A DNA stretch of 64,000 bases from assembly GCF_026586625.1 (NCBI RefSeq), contig NZ_JAODIW010000008.1, forward strand, positions 963,793 through 1,027,792, read 5' to 3'. This DNA comes from Halobium salinum (GTDB taxonomy: Archaea; Halobacteriota; Halobacteria; Halobacteriales; Haloferacaceae). How positions within the stretch are numbered: position 1 is the first letter of the stretch; each line of letters starts with the position of its first letter. Below, piece after piece: positions 29,707 to 36,594 of the stretch. A program made the position numbers and the translations under genes. The notes under the pieces were generated by a model, which ran no database searches, had not been told where the DNA came from, and saw only the letters and a program-made list of their open reading frames with translations.

Positions 29707-29917
29707 CCCGGAGAACTTGCCGACTCGGCACCTTAAGACCGTCGAAGCGGCCGAGTCTCGCCGGGGCCGAGGACGGTCGCGGCGGCGGCGGGTCCCGACG
29801 ACGCGACTCGACTACGCAGTTCCGAACGCCCGAAACTGGCTGGACGTGCGTCACGAAGTAGGGGCGAAAACTCCGAGAGAACGGACATTGACTCCTTAAA
29901 CAAGATTGAACATCGGA

Positions 29918-29934
29918 CGTTCGTCTGCCGAACG
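29918..29934 (+). promoter_or_regulatory. Inverted repeat upstream of the nas promoter
   Basis: CGTTCG-TCTGC-CGAACG is a perfect 6-bp inverted repeat with a 5-base spacer. It sits 16 bases before the shared nas element, a usual place for an archaeal activator site. No equivalent was seen before nasD. Confidence 0.4.
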
Positions 29935-29950
29935 AACCGATAATCGTGTA

Positions 29951-29984
29951 ATTTCAACGATTAGCGTTATACGCGTTCGTTCTG
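29951..29984 (+). promoter_or_regulatory. Shared nas promoter element, nasA copy
   Basis: Begins ATTTCAACGATTAGCGTTAT and ends GTTCGTTCTG. It matches the element at 34710-34743 before nasD at 29 of 34 positions. The CGATTAG..GTTAT part is the probable BRE/TATA region. Joint control of nitrate and nitrite reduction by nitrogen source is the likely reason for conservation. Confidence 0.65.
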
Positions 29985-30091
29985 TTCGCCCTACTCGTGA
30001 CCCGGACCCGATTCGAACAGGACTCGGAAGGAATCGTGGACGAGCATGGATATACCGAGCCGACACGCACGGGCAGCGCGGAGGCGCCGAC

Positions 30092-32287
30092 GTGACGGAC
30101 CCGGTGTCGACGACCTGCATGCGCTGTGCGGTCGGCTGTGGGCACGTCCACCGGGGTGCCGACCGCGGCTACGGCCTCGACACGGTCCGGGGCGACGCCG
30201 CCCACCCGGTCAACCGGGGACTCGCCTGCGGCCGGGGCATCCGCGAGAGCGTCGACCCCGCCGGCGAGTGGCTCACGCGGCCGCTCGTCCGGAAGGTCGG
30301 ACCCGATGGCGACGGCGACCTCGTCCGGGCGACGTGGTCCGACGCGCTCGACCGCGCCGCCGACGCGATCGGGGAGGCCGTCGCCGTCGACCCCGACGAG
30401 GTCGCGGTTCTGGGAAGCGGCCAGCAGACCAACGAGGCCGCCTACGCGCTCGGAAAGCTCGCGAGGGGCGGCGTCGGCACCCGCAACTACGACGCGAACA
30501 CGACGCTCTGCATGGCGAGCGCGGTGCGGGCGTACTACGACGCGTTCGGGAGCGACGCGCCGCCGCCGACGTACGACGACATCCCCGACGCTCGGTCACA
30601 CGTCGTCTGGGGGGCCAACCCGGCCGTGGCCCACCCCGTCATGTTCCGGTGGATAGCGGACTCGGCCGAGGACCCGAACTCGACGCTCCTCGTCGTCGAC
30701 CCCGTCGAGAGCGAGACGGCCGAAGTGGCGGACCTGCACGTCGCCCCCGACCCGGGCGGCGACCTCGCGCTGGCCCGCGCCGTGTTGGCCCAGTTGGTCG
30801 ACACCGGGCGCGTCGACGAGGCGTTCGTCGAGGCGCACACGGAGGGGTTCGGCGACCTCGCCGCGTCGCTGCCGGCCGTCGAGGACGCCGCGACCCGGGC
30901 GGGCGTCGGCGTCGAGACCGTCGAGGCGCTCGCCGGGGCGTTCGAGGCGCCGACGCTCGTCTACTGGGGGATGGGCGTCAACCAGAGCATCCGGGGCACC
31001 GCCACGGCGCGAGCGCTCATCGACTGCTGTCTCGCCTCCGGCAACCTCGGCCCGGGGAGCGGCCCGTTCTCGCTGACGGGGCAGGCGAACTCGATGGGCA
31101 CCCGCGTCTGTTCGTCGAAGGGGTCGTGGCCGGGCCACCGCGACTTCGACGACCCCGAGGAACGCCGGTTCGTCGCCGACGTGTGGGACGTCCCCGTCTC
31201 GCGGCTCCCCGACGACCCCGGTCCCGGCCCCGTCGGCGTCTTCGAGGCCCGCCCGTCGGTACTCTGGACGGTCGCCACCAACCCGGCGGCGGGGATGCCC
31301 GACGCCGGCCGTGTCAGGGAAATCCTCGACGACGCCTTCGTAATCGCGCAGGACGCCTTCCACACCGAGACCGTCGACTACGCCGACGTGGTGCTCCCGG
31401 CGGCGACGTGGGGTGAGTCTTCGGGCACCGCGATGAACATGGAGCGCACCGTCTCGCGGGTCCGGCCCGCGATCGACACGCCGGCGGGCGTGCGCTCGGA
31501 CCTCGACGTCGTCGCCGCGGTCGGCTCGCGAGTCGCGCCGGGCGTCTTCCCGCACGCCGAACTCGACCCCGAGGCCGTCTTCGACGAGTTCCGGGAGCTC
31601 ACCGCCGGCACCGACGCCGACTGTTCCGGCATCGACTACGACCGCCTCGACCGCGAACTCGCGGTGCGCTGGCCCGCCCCGGACGCCGAGACGAGCGGCG
31701 GCTACCGGTACTGCGAGCGGGAGGGCGGAGACGGAGCGAGTGACGGGGACGAGTCGGAACTGGGCGAGGCCGCCGACGGTCCCGTGGCGGGGTGGTCGTT
31801 TCCGACCCCGAGCGGGAAGGCGCACTTCTCCGGGGGCGTCGCCGACGTCGACGCCGAGTCGCTCCCCGAGCCGACCGGCGCCGACTACCCGCTCACCCTC
31901 ACGACGGGCCGGGAGCGGGACGGGTACAACACCGGCGTCCGCTCGCGGGAGGGCACCCCGGGGCCGGTTCGGGCGCGAATCAACCCCGAGACGTTCGCCG
32001 CGCTCGCCGAGCGGACGCGACTGGAGTCGGCGGGGCCGCGGACGGTCGTCGCCTCCCGCCGTGGGTCGGTCGACGCCGTCCTCGACCTCGACGAGTCGGT
32101 GCCGCCGGGACTGCTGTGGCTCCCCATCCACCATCCGACGACCAACCGGCTGACCCACCCCGCGACCGACCCGCTGTCGGCCGAGCCGAACCTCAAGCAG
32201 TGTGCGGTGCGGCTGGAGCGTCCCGAGGGGGAGGAGTCGGCGGGTCGGGACCTCGGCGAGGACCGGGAGGTGCCGGCCGATGACTAA
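30092..32287 (+). CDS. nasA: Assimilatory nitrate reductase (ferredoxin-dependent, molybdopterin)
   Basis: Reduces nitrate to nitrite with a bis-MGD molybdenum centre and one [4Fe-4S] cluster. From the GTG at 30092 it has 731 residues. C9, C12, C16 and C46 (CMRCAVGC, then LACGRG) hold the cluster. Molybdopterin domains follow, including YDANTTLCMASAV, YWGMGVNQSIRGTATARALID, QANSMGTRVC and DVVLPAATWGESSGTAMNMERTVSRVRPA; the C-terminal dinucleotide-binding domain contains LTTGRERDGYNTG. The order nasA-transporter-mobA-nasD matches the haloarchaeal (Haloferax mediterranei) nas cluster. Confidence 0.93.
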   Translation: MTDPVSTTCMRCAVGCGHVHRGADRGYGLDTVRGDAAHPVNRGLACGRGIRESVDPAGEWLTRPLVRKVGPDGDGDLVRATWSDALDRAADAIGEAVAVDPDEVAVLGSGQQTNEAAYALGKLARGGVGTRNYDANTTLCMASAVRAYYDAFGSDAPPPTYDDIPDARSHVVWGANPAVAHPVMFRWIADSAEDPNSTLLVVDPVESETAEVADLHVAPDPGGDLALARAVLAQLVDTGRVDEAFVEAHTEGFGDLAASLPAVEDAATRAGVGVETVEALAGAFEAPTLVYWGMGVNQSIRGTATARALIDCCLASGNLGPGSGPFSLTGQANSMGTRVCSSKGSWPGHRDFDDPEERRFVADVWDVPVSRLPDDPGPGPVGVFEARPSVLWTVATNPAAGMPDAGRVREILDDAFVIAQDAFHTETVDYADVVLPAATWGESSGTAMNMERTVSRVRPAIDTPAGVRSDLDVVAAVGSRVAPGVFPHAELDPEAVFDEFRELTAGTDADCSGIDYDRLDRELAVRWPAPDAETSGGYRYCEREGGDGASDGDESELGEAADGPVAGWSFPTPSGKAHFSGGVADVDAESLPEPTGADYPLTLTTGRERDGYNTGVRSREGTPGPVRARINPETFAALAERTRLESAGPRTVVASRRGSVDAVLDLDESVPPGLLWLPIHHPTTNRLTHPATDPLSAEPNLKQCAVRLERPEGEESAGRDLGEDREVPADD

Positions 32288-33656
32288 CAAGGTCGAACAG
32301 CTCGTCCTCGCGACGGTCGCGTTCTTCTGGGCGTTCCTCATGTGGTTCGCGACCGCGGCGTTCAGCCCGAGCATCGGCGACGCGTTCTCGCTGTCGACCG
32401 GGGAACTCGCCCTCCTCGCCAGTTCGGCCATCTGGTTGGCGCCCCCCGGACGCGTGGCCGCCGGCTGGGCCGCCGACAAGCTCGGCGCGCACAACACGTT
32501 CGCGATAATCCTCGCGTACTCCGGGGTCGTCAGCATCGCCTCGTCGTTCGCGACGAGCTACGAGGTGCTGTTTCTGGAGCGGCTGGTCGTCGCGAGCGCC
32601 GGCGTCGGCTTCGTCGTCGGCATCCAGCACGTCGCCCAGTGGTTCGACGAACACGAGATAGGCACGGCGGAGGGCCTCTACGCCGGCACGGGCAACGCCG
32701 GCGCCGGCGTCGGCGCGCTGGTGCTCCCCCGCCTCTACGGGACGGACTTCTCGGCCGCGTTCCTCCACCTCGGAATCGTCGCGCTGGTCATCGCCGCCGT
32801 CTACAAGTGGCGCGGCCAGCCCGCGAAGAGCGCCGAGCAGGCCGCGACGGCGAAGTCGAACACGTCGCTGCGGGACACGCTGTACGTCTGGACGCGCTAC
32901 ACGGCGGTCGCGCTGATGCTCGCCTACGGACTGACGTTCGGGCTCGAAATCGCCATGAACGCGTGGCTCCCCGGCTACTACGCCGAAGGGTTCGCCGCCG
33001 AACTCCGCGGATTGGGGTTCACCGACGCCGTGGCCATCCAGACCGCGGCGGGGACGTTCGCGGCCGTCCAGTCGTTCAACGCCTCGCTCTGGCGCCCCTT
33101 CTCGGGGTACATGTCCGACCTCTGGCAGCGCAAGGGGTGGACGCCGTACCCGTTTCTCGCGTCGGGACAGGACTACTCGCCGCGGGTCCACTGGGTGCTC
33201 ACGTCGCTGTTGCTCGTGGGCACCCTCCTCGTGGCGCTGTCGGCGGCGGGCGTCGCCGGCCTCCTCCCCGTCTCGGTGGTCGTCCTCGCGGGCTTCGGCG
33301 TCGCGGTGAGCTTCGGCACCGGTGGGGTGTTCGCGCTCGTCCCCCTCCTGTTCCCGGACCGGCCCGGCACCGCCGCCGGCTTCGTCGGCGGCATCTCGAC
33401 GACGGGCGGCATCCTCTACCCCATCCTGTTCGGCCTCCCAGCCGGCGTCCACCTGGGCTATGCGCTCGTCGCCGGCGTCGTCTTCGTCCCCTGTATCGCC
33501 TTCTTCGTGTGGGCGATGGCCCGCGCCGACGGCGCGGCCGGGGCGACGCCCGGACTCGGGAGCCGGGAGCGGTGGCTCGGTGCCGGGGCCGCCGGGGGCG
33601 CCGCGGGAGCCGGGACCGGAGCAGCCACCGACTCCGGGACGGGGGGTGACGACTGA
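32280..33656 (+). CDS. nasB: Nitrate/nitrite transporter, MFS NNP family (NarK/NasB)
   Basis: Membrane transporter of 458 residues with about 12 helices. NNP signatures are present: AGTGNAGAGVGALVLPRLYG in the first half and FGTGGVFALVPLLFPDRPGTAAGFVGGISTTGGILYPILFG in the second. The N-terminus FFWAFLMWFATAAFSPSIGDAF is typical of NarK. The C-terminal 45 residues are Gly/Ala-rich and probably cytoplasmic. Its ATG overlaps the nasA stop by 8 bases, indicating coupled translation. It would import the nitrate reduced by NasA. Confidence 0.93.
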   Translation: MTNKVEQLVLATVAFFWAFLMWFATAAFSPSIGDAFSLSTGELALLASSAIWLAPPGRVAAGWAADKLGAHNTFAIILAYSGVVSIASSFATSYEVLFLERLVVASAGVGFVVGIQHVAQWFDEHEIGTAEGLYAGTGNAGAGVGALVLPRLYGTDFSAAFLHLGIVALVIAAVYKWRGQPAKSAEQAATAKSNTSLRDTLYVWTRYTAVALMLAYGLTFGLEIAMNAWLPGYYAEGFAAELRGLGFTDAVAIQTAAGTFAAVQSFNASLWRPFSGYMSDLWQRKGWTPYPFLASGQDYSPRVHWVLTSLLLVGTLLVALSAAGVAGLLPVSVVVLAGFGVAVSFGTGGVFALVPLLFPDRPGTAAGFVGGISTTGGILYPILFGLPAGVHLGYALVAGVVFVPCIAFFVWAMARADGAAGATPGLGSRERWLGAGAAGGAAGAGTGAATDSGTGGDD

Positions 33657-33868
33657 TGGGTGGCCACGTCGACCCCGGGGACGACTCCCGGAGCGACGCC
33701 GACGACGGCTCGGACGCGGAACCCGTCGAGGACGCGGAACCCGTCGACCACGACCCCTGGTACCGGTGGGGCCGTCGCGTCCTCTACGGGGAGATGCTCC
33801 TCGCGGTGGTCGTGACGGTGTTCTCGCTGTACACCGCGCTGACCGGCTCCGCGGGGGTGCTGGTCTGA
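33656..33868 (+). CDS. Single-helix membrane protein of the nas operon, 70 aa
   Basis: Acidic N-terminal 33 residues, then DPWYRWGRRVLYGEMLLAVVVTVFSLYTALTG, one membrane helix with basic residues just before it. The start ATG shares its A with the stop of the transporter gene (TGATG), and its own stop overlaps the next small ORF in the same way. Position suggests a helper of the transporter or nitrate reductase; no family is recognised. Confidence 0.7.
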   Translation: MGGHVDPGDDSRSDADDGSDAEPVEDAEPVDHDPWYRWGRRVLYGEMLLAVVVTVFSLYTALTGSAGVLV

Positions 33869-33930
33869 TGACGGTGCCGGGGACGGGAGCAGGGCGCCCG
33901 ACCGGGGCGACGGCGCGGAGCGGGCGGTGA
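33868..33930 (+). CDS. 20-aa ORF coupled to mobA
   Basis: An ATG that overlaps the previous stop (TGATG) opens 20 codons with high GC third positions and ends at a TGA that overlaps the mobA GTG (GTGA). It either encodes a microprotein or serves as a translation relay to mobA. The product is Gly/Thr/Arg-rich and has no recognised motif. Confidence 0.4.
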   Translation: MTVPGTGAGRPTGATARSGR

Positions 33931-34541
33931 ACGCCGACACGGGTCGGACGGGGGTCGTCGTCGCCGGCGGGCGCTCGTCGCGGTTCGCCGGCGCCGACAA
34001 GGCGCTCGCCCGGCTCGAGGGCACCCCGCTGATTCGGCACGTCGTCGACGACCTCGCGCCGGCCGTAGACGAGGTCGTCGTCAACTGTCGAGGCGCTCAG
34101 CGCGACGCCCTCGAGGCGGCGCTGTCGGGGTTCGAGGTGCGGTTCGCCGAGGACCGCATCCACGACCGCGGCCCGCTCGCCGGGGTCAGGTCCGGCCTCC
34201 GGGCCGCGCGGGGAAAGTACGCCGCGCTCGTCGCCTGCGACATGCCGCACGTCCCCGCGTCGCTTCTCTCGGCCCTCTTCGAGCACGCTCGCCACCGGAC
34301 CGGCGCGGCACCGCGCGTCGACGAAGTGCTCCAGCCGTTCCCCGCCGTCGTCCACGTCCGCGCGGGCCTCGACGCGTGTCGGGAGGCGTTCACCCGTCAC
34401 CCGCGGTCGATGCGGGAGTTCCTCGACAGTCTCGACCCGGTGGCCGTCCCCGAGCGCGTCGTCGGCGCGTTCGTCACCCCCGACGCGTTCGCGAACGTGA
34501 ACACGCGGGCCGACCTGCGCGCGGCGACGGAGCGCCGCTGA
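33927..34541 (+). CDS. mobA: Molybdenum cofactor guanylyltransferase (MobA/NasC)
   Basis: Attaches GMP to molybdopterin to make the guanine dinucleotide cofactor used by NasA. 204 residues from a GTG at 33927. The nucleotide-binding N-terminus is GVVVAGGRSSRFAGADKALARLEGTPLIRHV, followed by EDRIHDRGPLAGVRSGLRAARGKYAALVACDMPHVP with the metal-binding Asp, and the C-terminal FANVNTRADL. It is the last gene of the coupled nas operon, as in other haloarchaeal nas clusters. Confidence 0.9.
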   Translation: MNADTGRTGVVVAGGRSSRFAGADKALARLEGTPLIRHVVDDLAPAVDEVVVNCRGAQRDALEAALSGFEVRFAEDRIHDRGPLAGVRSGLRAARGKYAALVACDMPHVPASLLSALFEHARHRTGAAPRVDEVLQPFPAVVHVRAGLDACREAFTRHPRSMREFLDSLDPVAVPERVVGAFVTPDAFANVNTRADLRAATERR

Positions 34542-34824
34542 ACCGGTCGGTCCCCGCTCCGCCCCCGGGTACGAAGTTTCGTATTCGGGTTGTGTCGTTG
34601 GACACCCGTCCGGGAACCCGTCCAGTTCTCGTCCGTCTTACGTCCTTATACGGATTCGATTCCATTGCATACCGACCGACCGCCCACCGAGACGGAGTAT
34701 TTTCTGAGTATTTCAACGATTAGAGTTATGAGTGTTCGTGCTGGAGGCTCGTTCCGAGAGAAGCACATGAGTCAGTCAGAATACGCGGACAAACCGCACG
34801 AACGTCCACACGGGGTGAGCCGAG
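34542..34824. other. Intergenic region with the nasD promoter
   Basis: 283 bases, AT-richer than the surroundings. It contains a TATA-like CCTTATACGG at about 34639-34648 and the nas element at 34710-34743. A 22-codon ORF begins at 34767 and runs into nasD. Confidence 0.5.
34710..34743 (+). promoter_or_regulatory. Shared nas promoter element, nasD copy
   Basis: Begins ATTTCAACGATTAGAGTTAT and ends GTTCGTGCTG; 29 of 34 bases match the copy before nasA (29951-29984). It ends 81 bases before the nasD ATG, implying a leader of several tens of bases. Confidence 0.65.
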
Positions 34825-34835
34825 ATGGCGCATGA
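34767..34835 (+). CDS. 22-aa upstream ORF overlapping the nasD start
   Basis: ATG at 34767, stop at 34833-34835, overlapping the first 11 bases of nasD in another frame. It follows the promoter element by 23 bases. Its third positions are only moderately GC, weaker than in real genes here. It may affect nasD translation or be chance. Confidence 0.25.
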   Translation: MSQSEYADKPHERPHGVSRDGA

Positions 34836-36594
34836 GAAGGAGGACTGGAAGGAGGCGTGTTACGGCGACGAGGTGCGCGAGAAGCTCCTCGAGTTCGCCG
34901 AGAAGGGGTGGGAGTCCATCCCCGAGGACGAGCGCGAGAAGTGGTTCACGCGGTTCAAGTTCTGGGGGGTGTTCCACCAGCGCACCGGGCAGGAGTCGTA
35001 CTTCATGCTGCGGCTGACGAACGCGAGCGGCGTGCTCGAACCCGGCCAACTGCGTACCATCGGGGAGGTCGCTCGCGACTACGCGACCGGCCCGGTCCAG
35101 AACCCCGAGTTCGGCGACGGGTGGCTCGACCTGACGACCCGCCAGTCCGTCCAACTCCACTGGATAAAGCTCGAGGACGTCCCCGCCGTCTGGGAGCAAC
35201 TGGAGGCGGCGGGCGTGTCGACGCGCTCCTCCGGGGGCGACACGATGCGCAACATCTCGGGCTGTCCCGTCGCCGGGAAGGACGAGCACGAGCTCGTCGA
35301 AGCCCGGCCCCTGCTGGAGCGTTTTCAGACCGAACTCCGGGCCGACGACGACCTCGCGAACATGCCCCGGAAGTTCAACATCTCCGTGACGGGCTGTCGC
35401 GAGGGGTGTGCACAGGACAGCATCAACGACGTGGGCATCGAGCCGGCGCGGAAGGAAGTCGCGGGTGAGAAGACCCTCGGTTTCAACGTCCGCGTCGGTG
35501 GCGGCCTCGGGGGACGCAAGCCCCGAAAAGCCCGGTCACTCGACGTGTTCGTCACGCCCGAGGAGGCCTACGAAGTCGTCCACGGCTTCGTCGAACTGTA
35601 CCACGACTACGGCGACCGCGACGTGCGCTCGAAGAACCGGGCGCGCTTCTTCGTCGACGACTGGGGGACGGAGAGGATACGCGAGACCCTGCAGGAGGAG
35701 TACGTCGACGTCGACCTCCGAACGGCCGGCGAGGACGTCCGCGACGAGTACACGTACAACGCCGGGAAACCGCCCGCGGCGGGGAAGGCAGACCACGTCG
35801 GGGTCCACGAGCAGGCCGACGGTCGGTACTACGTCGGTCTCTCGGTCGCGGTGGGACGGCTCTCCGCCGACGACGCCCTCGAACTGGCCGACCTCGCCGA
35901 CGAGTACGGCTCCGGCGAGGTACGTCTGACCCGCCGGCAGAACCCGCTTCTGATGGACGTTTCCGGGGACGACCTCGACGCCCTGCTCGACGAGCCGCTG
36001 CTGTCGAAACACACCCCCGAGCCGAACCCGTTCGCCCGCGGCGCGGTCGCCTGCACGGGGACGGAGTTCTGCTCGCTCGCGCTGACGGAGACGAAGGCCC
36101 GGACCGCCCGGATGCTGCGCTGGTTCCGCGACAACGTCGACCTGCCGGAGGACGTCGAACAGTTGAAACTCCACTACTCCGGCTGCACCGCCGACTGCGG
36201 GCAGGCCAACACCGCCGACATCGGCCTGCTCGGGATGCGCGCCCGAAAGGACGGGGAGATGTGCGAGGCGATGGACGTCGGCGTCGGCGGCGGAATCGGC
36301 GAGGAGCCGAGTTTCGTCGAGTGGGTCCGTCAACGCGTCCCCGCCGACGAGGTACCCGGCGCGGTGAGGAACCTCGTGGAGGCGTTCGCGGCCCATCGCG
36401 AACCGGGCCAGCCGTTCCGCGAGTGGGTCGCGGAGACCGGGACCGAGGCGGTCGTCGACCTCTGTGAACCCGAGGAGACGAGCTACGAGGACCCGTGGCT
36501 CCACGACGCGAAACAGTCCTGGTACCCGTTCGCGGAGGGGGAGAGCCCGGCGCCGACGGCCGCCGACGGGACGCCGCTGTCGGCCGATGACTGA
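34825..36594 (+). CDS. nasD: Ferredoxin-dependent assimilatory nitrite reductase
   Basis: Six-electron reduction of nitrite to ammonium. 589 residues with two ferredoxin-like half-domains (about 55-130, 335-400) and two siroheme/[4Fe-4S] domains. The cluster cysteines are C410 and C416 (ACTGTEFC) and C454 and C458 (SGCTADC), with C458 bridging to siroheme. The N-terminal half has PRKFNISVTGCREGCAQDSINDVG and RVGGGLGG. The ATG at 34825 fits the conserved start (KEDWKEACYGDEVREKL). It has its own promoter, sharing an element with nasA. Confidence 0.95.
   Translation: MAHEKEDWKEACYGDEVREKLLEFAEKGWESIPEDEREKWFTRFKFWGVFHQRTGQESYFMLRLTNASGVLEPGQLRTIGEVARDYATGPVQNPEFGDGWLDLTTRQSVQLHWIKLEDVPAVWEQLEAAGVSTRSSGGDTMRNISGCPVAGKDEHELVEARPLLERFQTELRADDDLANMPRKFNISVTGCREGCAQDSINDVGIEPARKEVAGEKTLGFNVRVGGGLGGRKPRKARSLDVFVTPEEAYEVVHGFVELYHDYGDRDVRSKNRARFFVDDWGTERIRETLQEEYVDVDLRTAGEDVRDEYTYNAGKPPAAGKADHVGVHEQADGRYYVGLSVAVGRLSADDALELADLADEYGSGEVRLTRRQNPLLMDVSGDDLDALLDEPLLSKHTPEPNPFARGAVACTGTEFCSLALTETKARTARMLRWFRDNVDLPEDVEQLKLHYSGCTADCGQANTADIGLLGMRARKDGEMCEAMDVGVGGGIGEEPSFVEWVRQRVPADEVPGAVRNLVEAFAAHREPGQPFREWVAETGTEAVVDLCEPEETSYEDPWLHDAKQSWYPFAEGESPAPTAADGTPLSADD

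Follow-up and report, generated by a model that had tools for sequence, protein, structure and literature searches.

The closest described counterpart of the promoters studied here, those of the nasA and nasD genes in a 64,000-nucleotide stretch of Halobium salinum DNA (the window), belongs to the nasABC genes of Haloferax mediterranei. That locus has the same genes and a divergent gene for an ATP-binding protein, its nas transcripts are off in ammonium, a five-base change at a promoter site upstream did away with induction by nitrate, and a pull-down with the promoter yielded an Lrp/AsnC protein; the accessible part of that report mentions neither a shared element or a dyad pair nor a spacing or a leader open reading frame (ORF) (PMC8143581). 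Transcripts of the Haloferax amtB-glnK genes are high without ammonium and undetected with it, and the available part of the corresponding paper proposes a novel mechanism and gives no site (PMC3831643); as described below, amtB carries the same type of promoter as the nas genes of the window. According to these papers on haloarchaeal nitrogen control, it is unknown how ammonium silences nas and amtB (PMC8143581, PMC3831643). A further related system is the termination-reinitiation of Haloferax volcanii, which works best at stop/start overlaps of -4, -1 and -8 nt and was described for ordinary gene pairs (PMC10666635). The same overlaps are found here, whereas the upstream partner is a short leader ORF that is itself conserved while its peptide, for the most part, is not.

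In the window, nasA and nasD are each preceded by a copy of a 34-bp near-identical element. We propose, with a probability of roughly 0.66, that this match is the core of a conserved haloarchaeal nitrogen-regulon promoter, common to nasA, nasD, amtB and some nitrate transporter genes, which is served by a dimeric regulator and followed by a reinitiating leader ORF. No earlier description of the element was found in the openly accessible literature, which does not prove its absence elsewhere.

Promoter core upstream of nasA and nasD

The nasA gene (30092-32287, plus strand; Pfam PF00384, PF01568 and PF04879) codes for a molybdopterin assimilatory nitrate reductase and nasD (34825-36594, plus strand; Pfam PF01077 and PF03460) for a ferredoxin nitrite reductase. 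Bases 29951-29984 and 34710-34743 are identical at 29 of 34 positions and form the best ungapped 34-mer match between the upstream regions of these genes; when the regions were shuffled (60 shuffles), the best match had 22 identities at most and 19.5 on average, corroborating the near-identical element that a first-pass annotation of this DNA had placed at these positions. The exact 14-mer ATTTCAACGATTAG had two copies in the 4.46-Mb genome, both in the nasA and nasD upstream regions, and when the nasA region was searched against the genome with a blastn-type method, the nasD copy was retrieved (E=2.9e-4) without any other comparable match.

Both copies start with the proximal box ATTTCAACGATTA (29951-29963 before nasA and 34710-34722 before nasD, plus strand), which in nasA adjoins a predicted TATA box, TTAT (29967-29970, plus strand); the predicted TATA box of nasD, also TTAT, is at 34726-34729 on the plus strand. 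The haloarchaeal TATA consensus is TTWT (PMC4983044). With transcription taken to begin some 30 nt downstream of the first T in TTWT, the predicted start sites would be at about 29997 (nasA) and 34756 (nasD).

The core was followed in 205 non-redundant leaders, drawn from 75 named loci that contain a NasD relative and from another 80 regions in genomes belonging to the same order; it was detected with an iterated profile at a cut-off score of >9. The profile, TGTAAACGATTAGCGTTATA (or TTTCAACGATTA), exceeded this score in 119 non-redundant haloarchaeal promoters, corresponding to 44 nasA and 75 nasD leaders, and its distance to the main start was nearly constant (104-122 in most nasD and 130-142 in most nasA leaders). 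The proximal box, with the consensus TCAACGATTA, abuts the TATA box and lies at about -45 to -34 from the predicted start, TTWT lying at about -30. The core was also present, with the same spacing as in nas, in 41 of 78 amtB promoters (a few of which came from the composite-pattern search itself, see below), as compared with 1 of 78 after shuffling.

Alignment with other haloarchaeal nas promoters, which the first-pass annotation had asked for, showed that the element is kept in nasA and nasD promoters, so that a lack of conservation, the first of the two observations that the annotation had named as contrary to its proposal, was not found. The end of the match, GTTCGT.CTG, had been counted as part of the element; this downstream tail is not generally conserved and, therefore, the shared element proper stops at the TATA box. 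The 34-bp stretch is mostly core promoter and forms the core of a larger conserved promoter. The surrounding DNA, as had been said of it, does not match at the level of single bases; beyond the 34 bp there are, however, additional conserved blocks at a fixed spacing, namely CCTTAAA at 29894, CCTTATA at 34644, and dyads at 29915, 30038, 34674 and 34796; this conservation and this spacing were computed directly. Of the shared factor-binding site plus core promoter that had been read into the match, the core promoter stands, and the factor site was probably misplaced, the regulon-specific palindromic sites probably being those outside the 34 bp.

Composite pattern and regulon membership

Members of the regulon were sought by means of pattern searches and gene families. 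The short core alone was discarded as a probe, because it became unspecific as soon as mismatches were allowed. A distal box, CCTTAWA, lies at about -112 from the predicted start, and its offset from the proximal box is sharply -67/-68 in nasA, nasD and amtB, with an alternative of -58, one helical turn nearer, in a subgroup of nasA. Both promoters of the window carry the distal and proximal boxes at a fixed spacing, the distal box of nasA (CCTTAAA, 29894-29900, plus strand) at -58 and that of nasD (CCTTATA, 34644-34650, plus strand) at -67.

The composite CCTTAWA-N55..72-AACGRWYANNNTTWT had 50 matches in 392 genomes and the reversed pattern had none; the only matches in the Halobium salinum genome were those of nasA and nasD. 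When 12 matches away from nasD were read singly, ten were found before amtB and two before a nitrate-transporter-like gene of the major facilitator superfamily (MFS). A relaxed composite gave 82 matches in the 392 genomes and none in the controls, and in the genomes with mapped genes all of them (26/26, coordinates compared by hand) preceded nasD or amtB. Every composite match that could be assigned was located before nasA, nasD, amtB or a nitrate transporter gene, with one or two matches per genome, and the pattern is specific enough to list the core members of the regulon across many haloarchaeal genomes. Inspection by eye of the amtB promoter of Halobium salinum showed a recognisable distal box, a weaker copy of the proximal box and a coupled ORF.

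Since the element is also found at amtB and at some nitrate transporter genes, and since nas and amtB are ammonium-repressed in Haloferax mediterranei (PMC8143581, PMC3831643), control by the nitrogen source, as proposed in the first-pass annotation, is the natural reading; it rests on regulon membership, which was computed directly, and on this literature.

Paired dyads and the putative regulator

A dyad with the consensus GGACGNNCGTCC occurs at about -82 (O1) and often again at about +42 (O2) from the predicted start, O2 being inside the leader. When GGACGNNCGTCC was counted by position relative to the proximal box, nasA, nasD and amtB all peaked near -40 and +85. The modal positions, -37 and +86, were occupied in 38/64 and 42/64 of the amtB, 30/75 and 22/75 of the nasD, and 9/44 and 11/44 of the nasA leaders, respectively, and the modal O1-O2 distance was 123-124 in all three classes. 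When the half-site was permuted at constant composition, GGACG alone had -37 and +86 as its best two positions; three other permutations reached similar joint scores, but these were located on the proximal box itself. In the window, O1 of nasA (GGACGTTCGTCT, 29915-29926, at the position common to nasA, nasD and amtB) has one mismatch to GGACGNNCGTCC and O2 (GGACGAGCATGG, 30038-30049), 123 bp away, has three; in nasD, O1 (GACCGACCGCCC, 34674-34685) has three mismatches and O2 (GCACGAACGTCC, 34796-34807), at 122 bp, has one. No strand is assigned to these dyads, and each promoter has one good copy and one copy with three mismatches.

Operators of the Ptr2 type of Lrp/AsnC protein (feast/famine regulatory proteins, FFRP) have the form GGACG-N5-CGTCC. 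The dyads described here share the half-sites GGACG and CGTCC, with a spacer of 2 instead of 5, a likeness by sequence.

The dyads flanking the promoter, their constant spacing of about 12 helical turns, and the silence of these genes in ammonium (PMC8143581, PMC3831643) make a dimeric, ammonium-responsive regulator the simplest explanation. They suggest that such a protein acts on both dyads, although the sign of its action (repression, activation or both) is not readable from the sequence. The regulator would bind O1 and O2, 123-124 bp apart and thus close to 12 helical turns; it would shut the promoter, possibly by looping, when ammonium is plentiful, and under nitrogen limitation the promoter would be released, or else activated via the proximal box. 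In the fully specified version, a single dimeric regulator spans the nas and amt promoters by holding two GGACGNNCGTCC operators at a distance of 123-124 bp, one of them within a start-site ORF that also delivers ribosomes to the main gene; in this much detail it is put forward as doubtful.

An Lrp/AsnC protein is the leading, if tentative, candidate for this regulator because of three observations: the pull-down reported for Hfx. mediterranei (PMC8143581), the closest Lrp homologue in the Halobium salinum genome, which adjoins glnA (glutamine synthetase, recognised by eye), and the Lrp genes found beside nas or amtB in about 15 of the sampled loci. The counterpart of this closest homologue in Hfx. 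mediterranei, HFX_0246, is likewise next to glnA. One other candidate was rejected. The NrpR regulon of methanogens is an archaeal nitrogen regulon with palindromic operators, sometimes paired, at nitrogen genes. The operator sequence found here differs from that of NrpR, and NrpR itself (PF01995) is absent from the Halobium salinum genome and from 133 of 142 haloarchaea, with a match in 9 of 142. The motif AAAGACTAART (PMC6801745) is different from the element.

The alternative that survives best is an activator, for instance an Lrp/AsnC or a Bat-type helix-turn-helix protein, that would occupy the distal and proximal boxes when nitrogen is limiting and bring TFB and TBP to a weak core, the dyads being accessory. 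It departs from the explanation preferred above in the sign of control, the regulon being identical, and we regard it as quite possible, at somewhat worse than even odds. The promoter-site change and the pull-down of Hfx. mediterranei fit this activator (PMC8143581), but it was not possible to locate the mutated TAGAT relative to the element. The Lrp genes beside nas or amtB and the glnA neighbourhood shared with HFX_0246 point in the same direction, as does the shift of the distal-to-proximal spacing by one helical turn between groups; against this, there are many Lrp genes per genome, and no dyad with one mismatch or none was found near the glnA/lrp pair of the Halobium salinum genome.

A reading of the element as nothing more than a strong core promoter, i.e. 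a variant B recognition element (BRE) plus a TATA box, common to two neighbouring genes by ancestry or convergence and without a nitrogen-specific factor, is improbable. The proximal box does occupy the BRE position and abuts TTWT, and an exact 15-mer similar to the core, AACGATAACGCTTTT, was present in four genera, directly before a citrate-synthase-like gene in both loci that were read. However, wherever it could be assigned, the composite preceded only nas, amt and nitrate-transporter genes, with none in the controls, and the fixed spacings extend well past the core.

Leader open reading frames

The nasA leader of the window contains a small ORF of 32 codons (29997-30095, plus strand) that begins with a GTG at the predicted transcription start and whose TGA overlaps the GTG of nasA by 4 nt (GTGA). 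The small ORF of the nasD leader, 22 codons from an ATG (34767-34835, plus strand), extends over the first 11 nt of nasD, in a different frame. With respect to the Haloferax coupling range of -8 to +6, the nasA overlap of -4 nt is inside and the nasD overlap of 11 nt just outside. Small ORFs starting with GTG or ATG from the predicted start, and with a stop codon overlapping the main start, were found in 44/44 nasA and 55/75 nasD leaders. In amtB they were found in 57/64, and in 48 the distance from the TATA T to the start codon was exactly 30 nt; here the main start was chosen from several candidates, a choice that makes an overlap more likely to be seen. The overlaps were mostly -4, -8 and -1 nt in nasA and amtB, and 11 nt prevailed in nasD.

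This coupled frame was computed directly. The small ORF ends over the main start codon, which suggests that ribosomes reach the main gene by termination-reinitiation; the ORF would be translated from a start at or near the predicted 5' end of the mRNA. Substitutions were equal over the three codon positions in the nasA and nasD leader ORFs, indicating conservation of the frame but not of the peptide, perhaps with the exception of one amtB subgroup. In this amtB family, to which eleven of the leaders belong, the small ORF encodes a conserved NSRPDD-like peptide and has more third-position changes than elsewhere. A functional leader peptide in general was rejected, given the equal codon positions in nasA and nasD; only this subgroup hints at constraint.

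We consider it unlikely that the small ORFs are chance open frames in GC-rich DNA, or encode a functional peptide, instead of serving translational coupling. The equal change over codon positions, with no general coding signal in nasA and nasD, would agree with chance, and the NSRPDD subgroup with a functional peptide there; but the 44/44 and 55/75 leaders contrast with 8.6 +/- 2.7 (nasA) and 12.6 +/- 3.2 (nasD) in 200 dinucleotide shuffles, with 8-19 after insertion of one or two bases, and with 11 of 89 in a similar test of neighbouring genes with intergenic upstream DNA. That the conserved leader works as an RNA (riboswitch, hairpin or attenuator) under an unregulated promoter is very improbable, for although leader length is conserved and a palindrome with a small hairpin fold, GTGTGATTGTAAATCACAC, is kept at the expected position of the downstream dyad in six nasA leaders of one clade, neither the nasD sets nor the nasA set as a whole gave a consensus structure, there was no Rfam match up to E=1, and the leader dyad has a copy upstream of the promoter as well, in DNA that this promoter does not transcribe.

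Weighing and meaning of the proposed promoter

Several points weigh against the conserved regulated promoter with its coupled ORF. A recognisable proximal box is missing from about half of the amtB and from a minority of the nas promoters, and the nasA promoters of four Haloferax genomes are free of the element, which suggests a different nas lineage or control in them. The nasD O1 and the nasA O2 of the window are poor, with three mismatches each, and the nasA modes are weak; part of the O2 conservation may be that of codons, since O2 lies within the small ORF. Looping repression is the simplest reading of two flanking dyads, and activation from O1 is possible too. As for the coupling, the usual 11-nt overlap of nasD is longer than the overlaps that couple best, and in five nasD leaders of one family the frame is closed after two codons (GTGAATTAG), the leader length being kept. 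Finally, the counts are not independent events, because the sequences are related by descent, and the dyads and the leader ORF were spotted after inspecting the sequences; hence they are evidence of a pattern and not proof of binding.

The composite supplies exact DNA baits and positions for mutation, which makes the haloarchaeal nitrogen switch directly testable. The fully specified version with the bridging regulator, if correct, would amount to a so far undescribed nitrogen switch that combines transcriptional and translational control within one leader, and the coupled start-site ORFs would represent conserved leader translation in three gene classes of archaea with mostly leaderless mRNAs.

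Neighbouring genes and a second paralogue

Between nasA and nasD there are genes for an MFS transporter, a 70-residue ORF and a MobA-like protein, and the gene for an AAA ATPase is divergent. A Pfam search with the 70-residue ORF (33656-33868, between the transporter and the MobA-like gene) gave no match. Upstream of a second nitrite/sulfite-reductase-like paralogue, with an identity of 55-59%, there is another, strongly conserved block, approximately AGCACCGGGAAGGGTTGACGG, which differs from the element and was found at seven loci in the 200 bp before the match.

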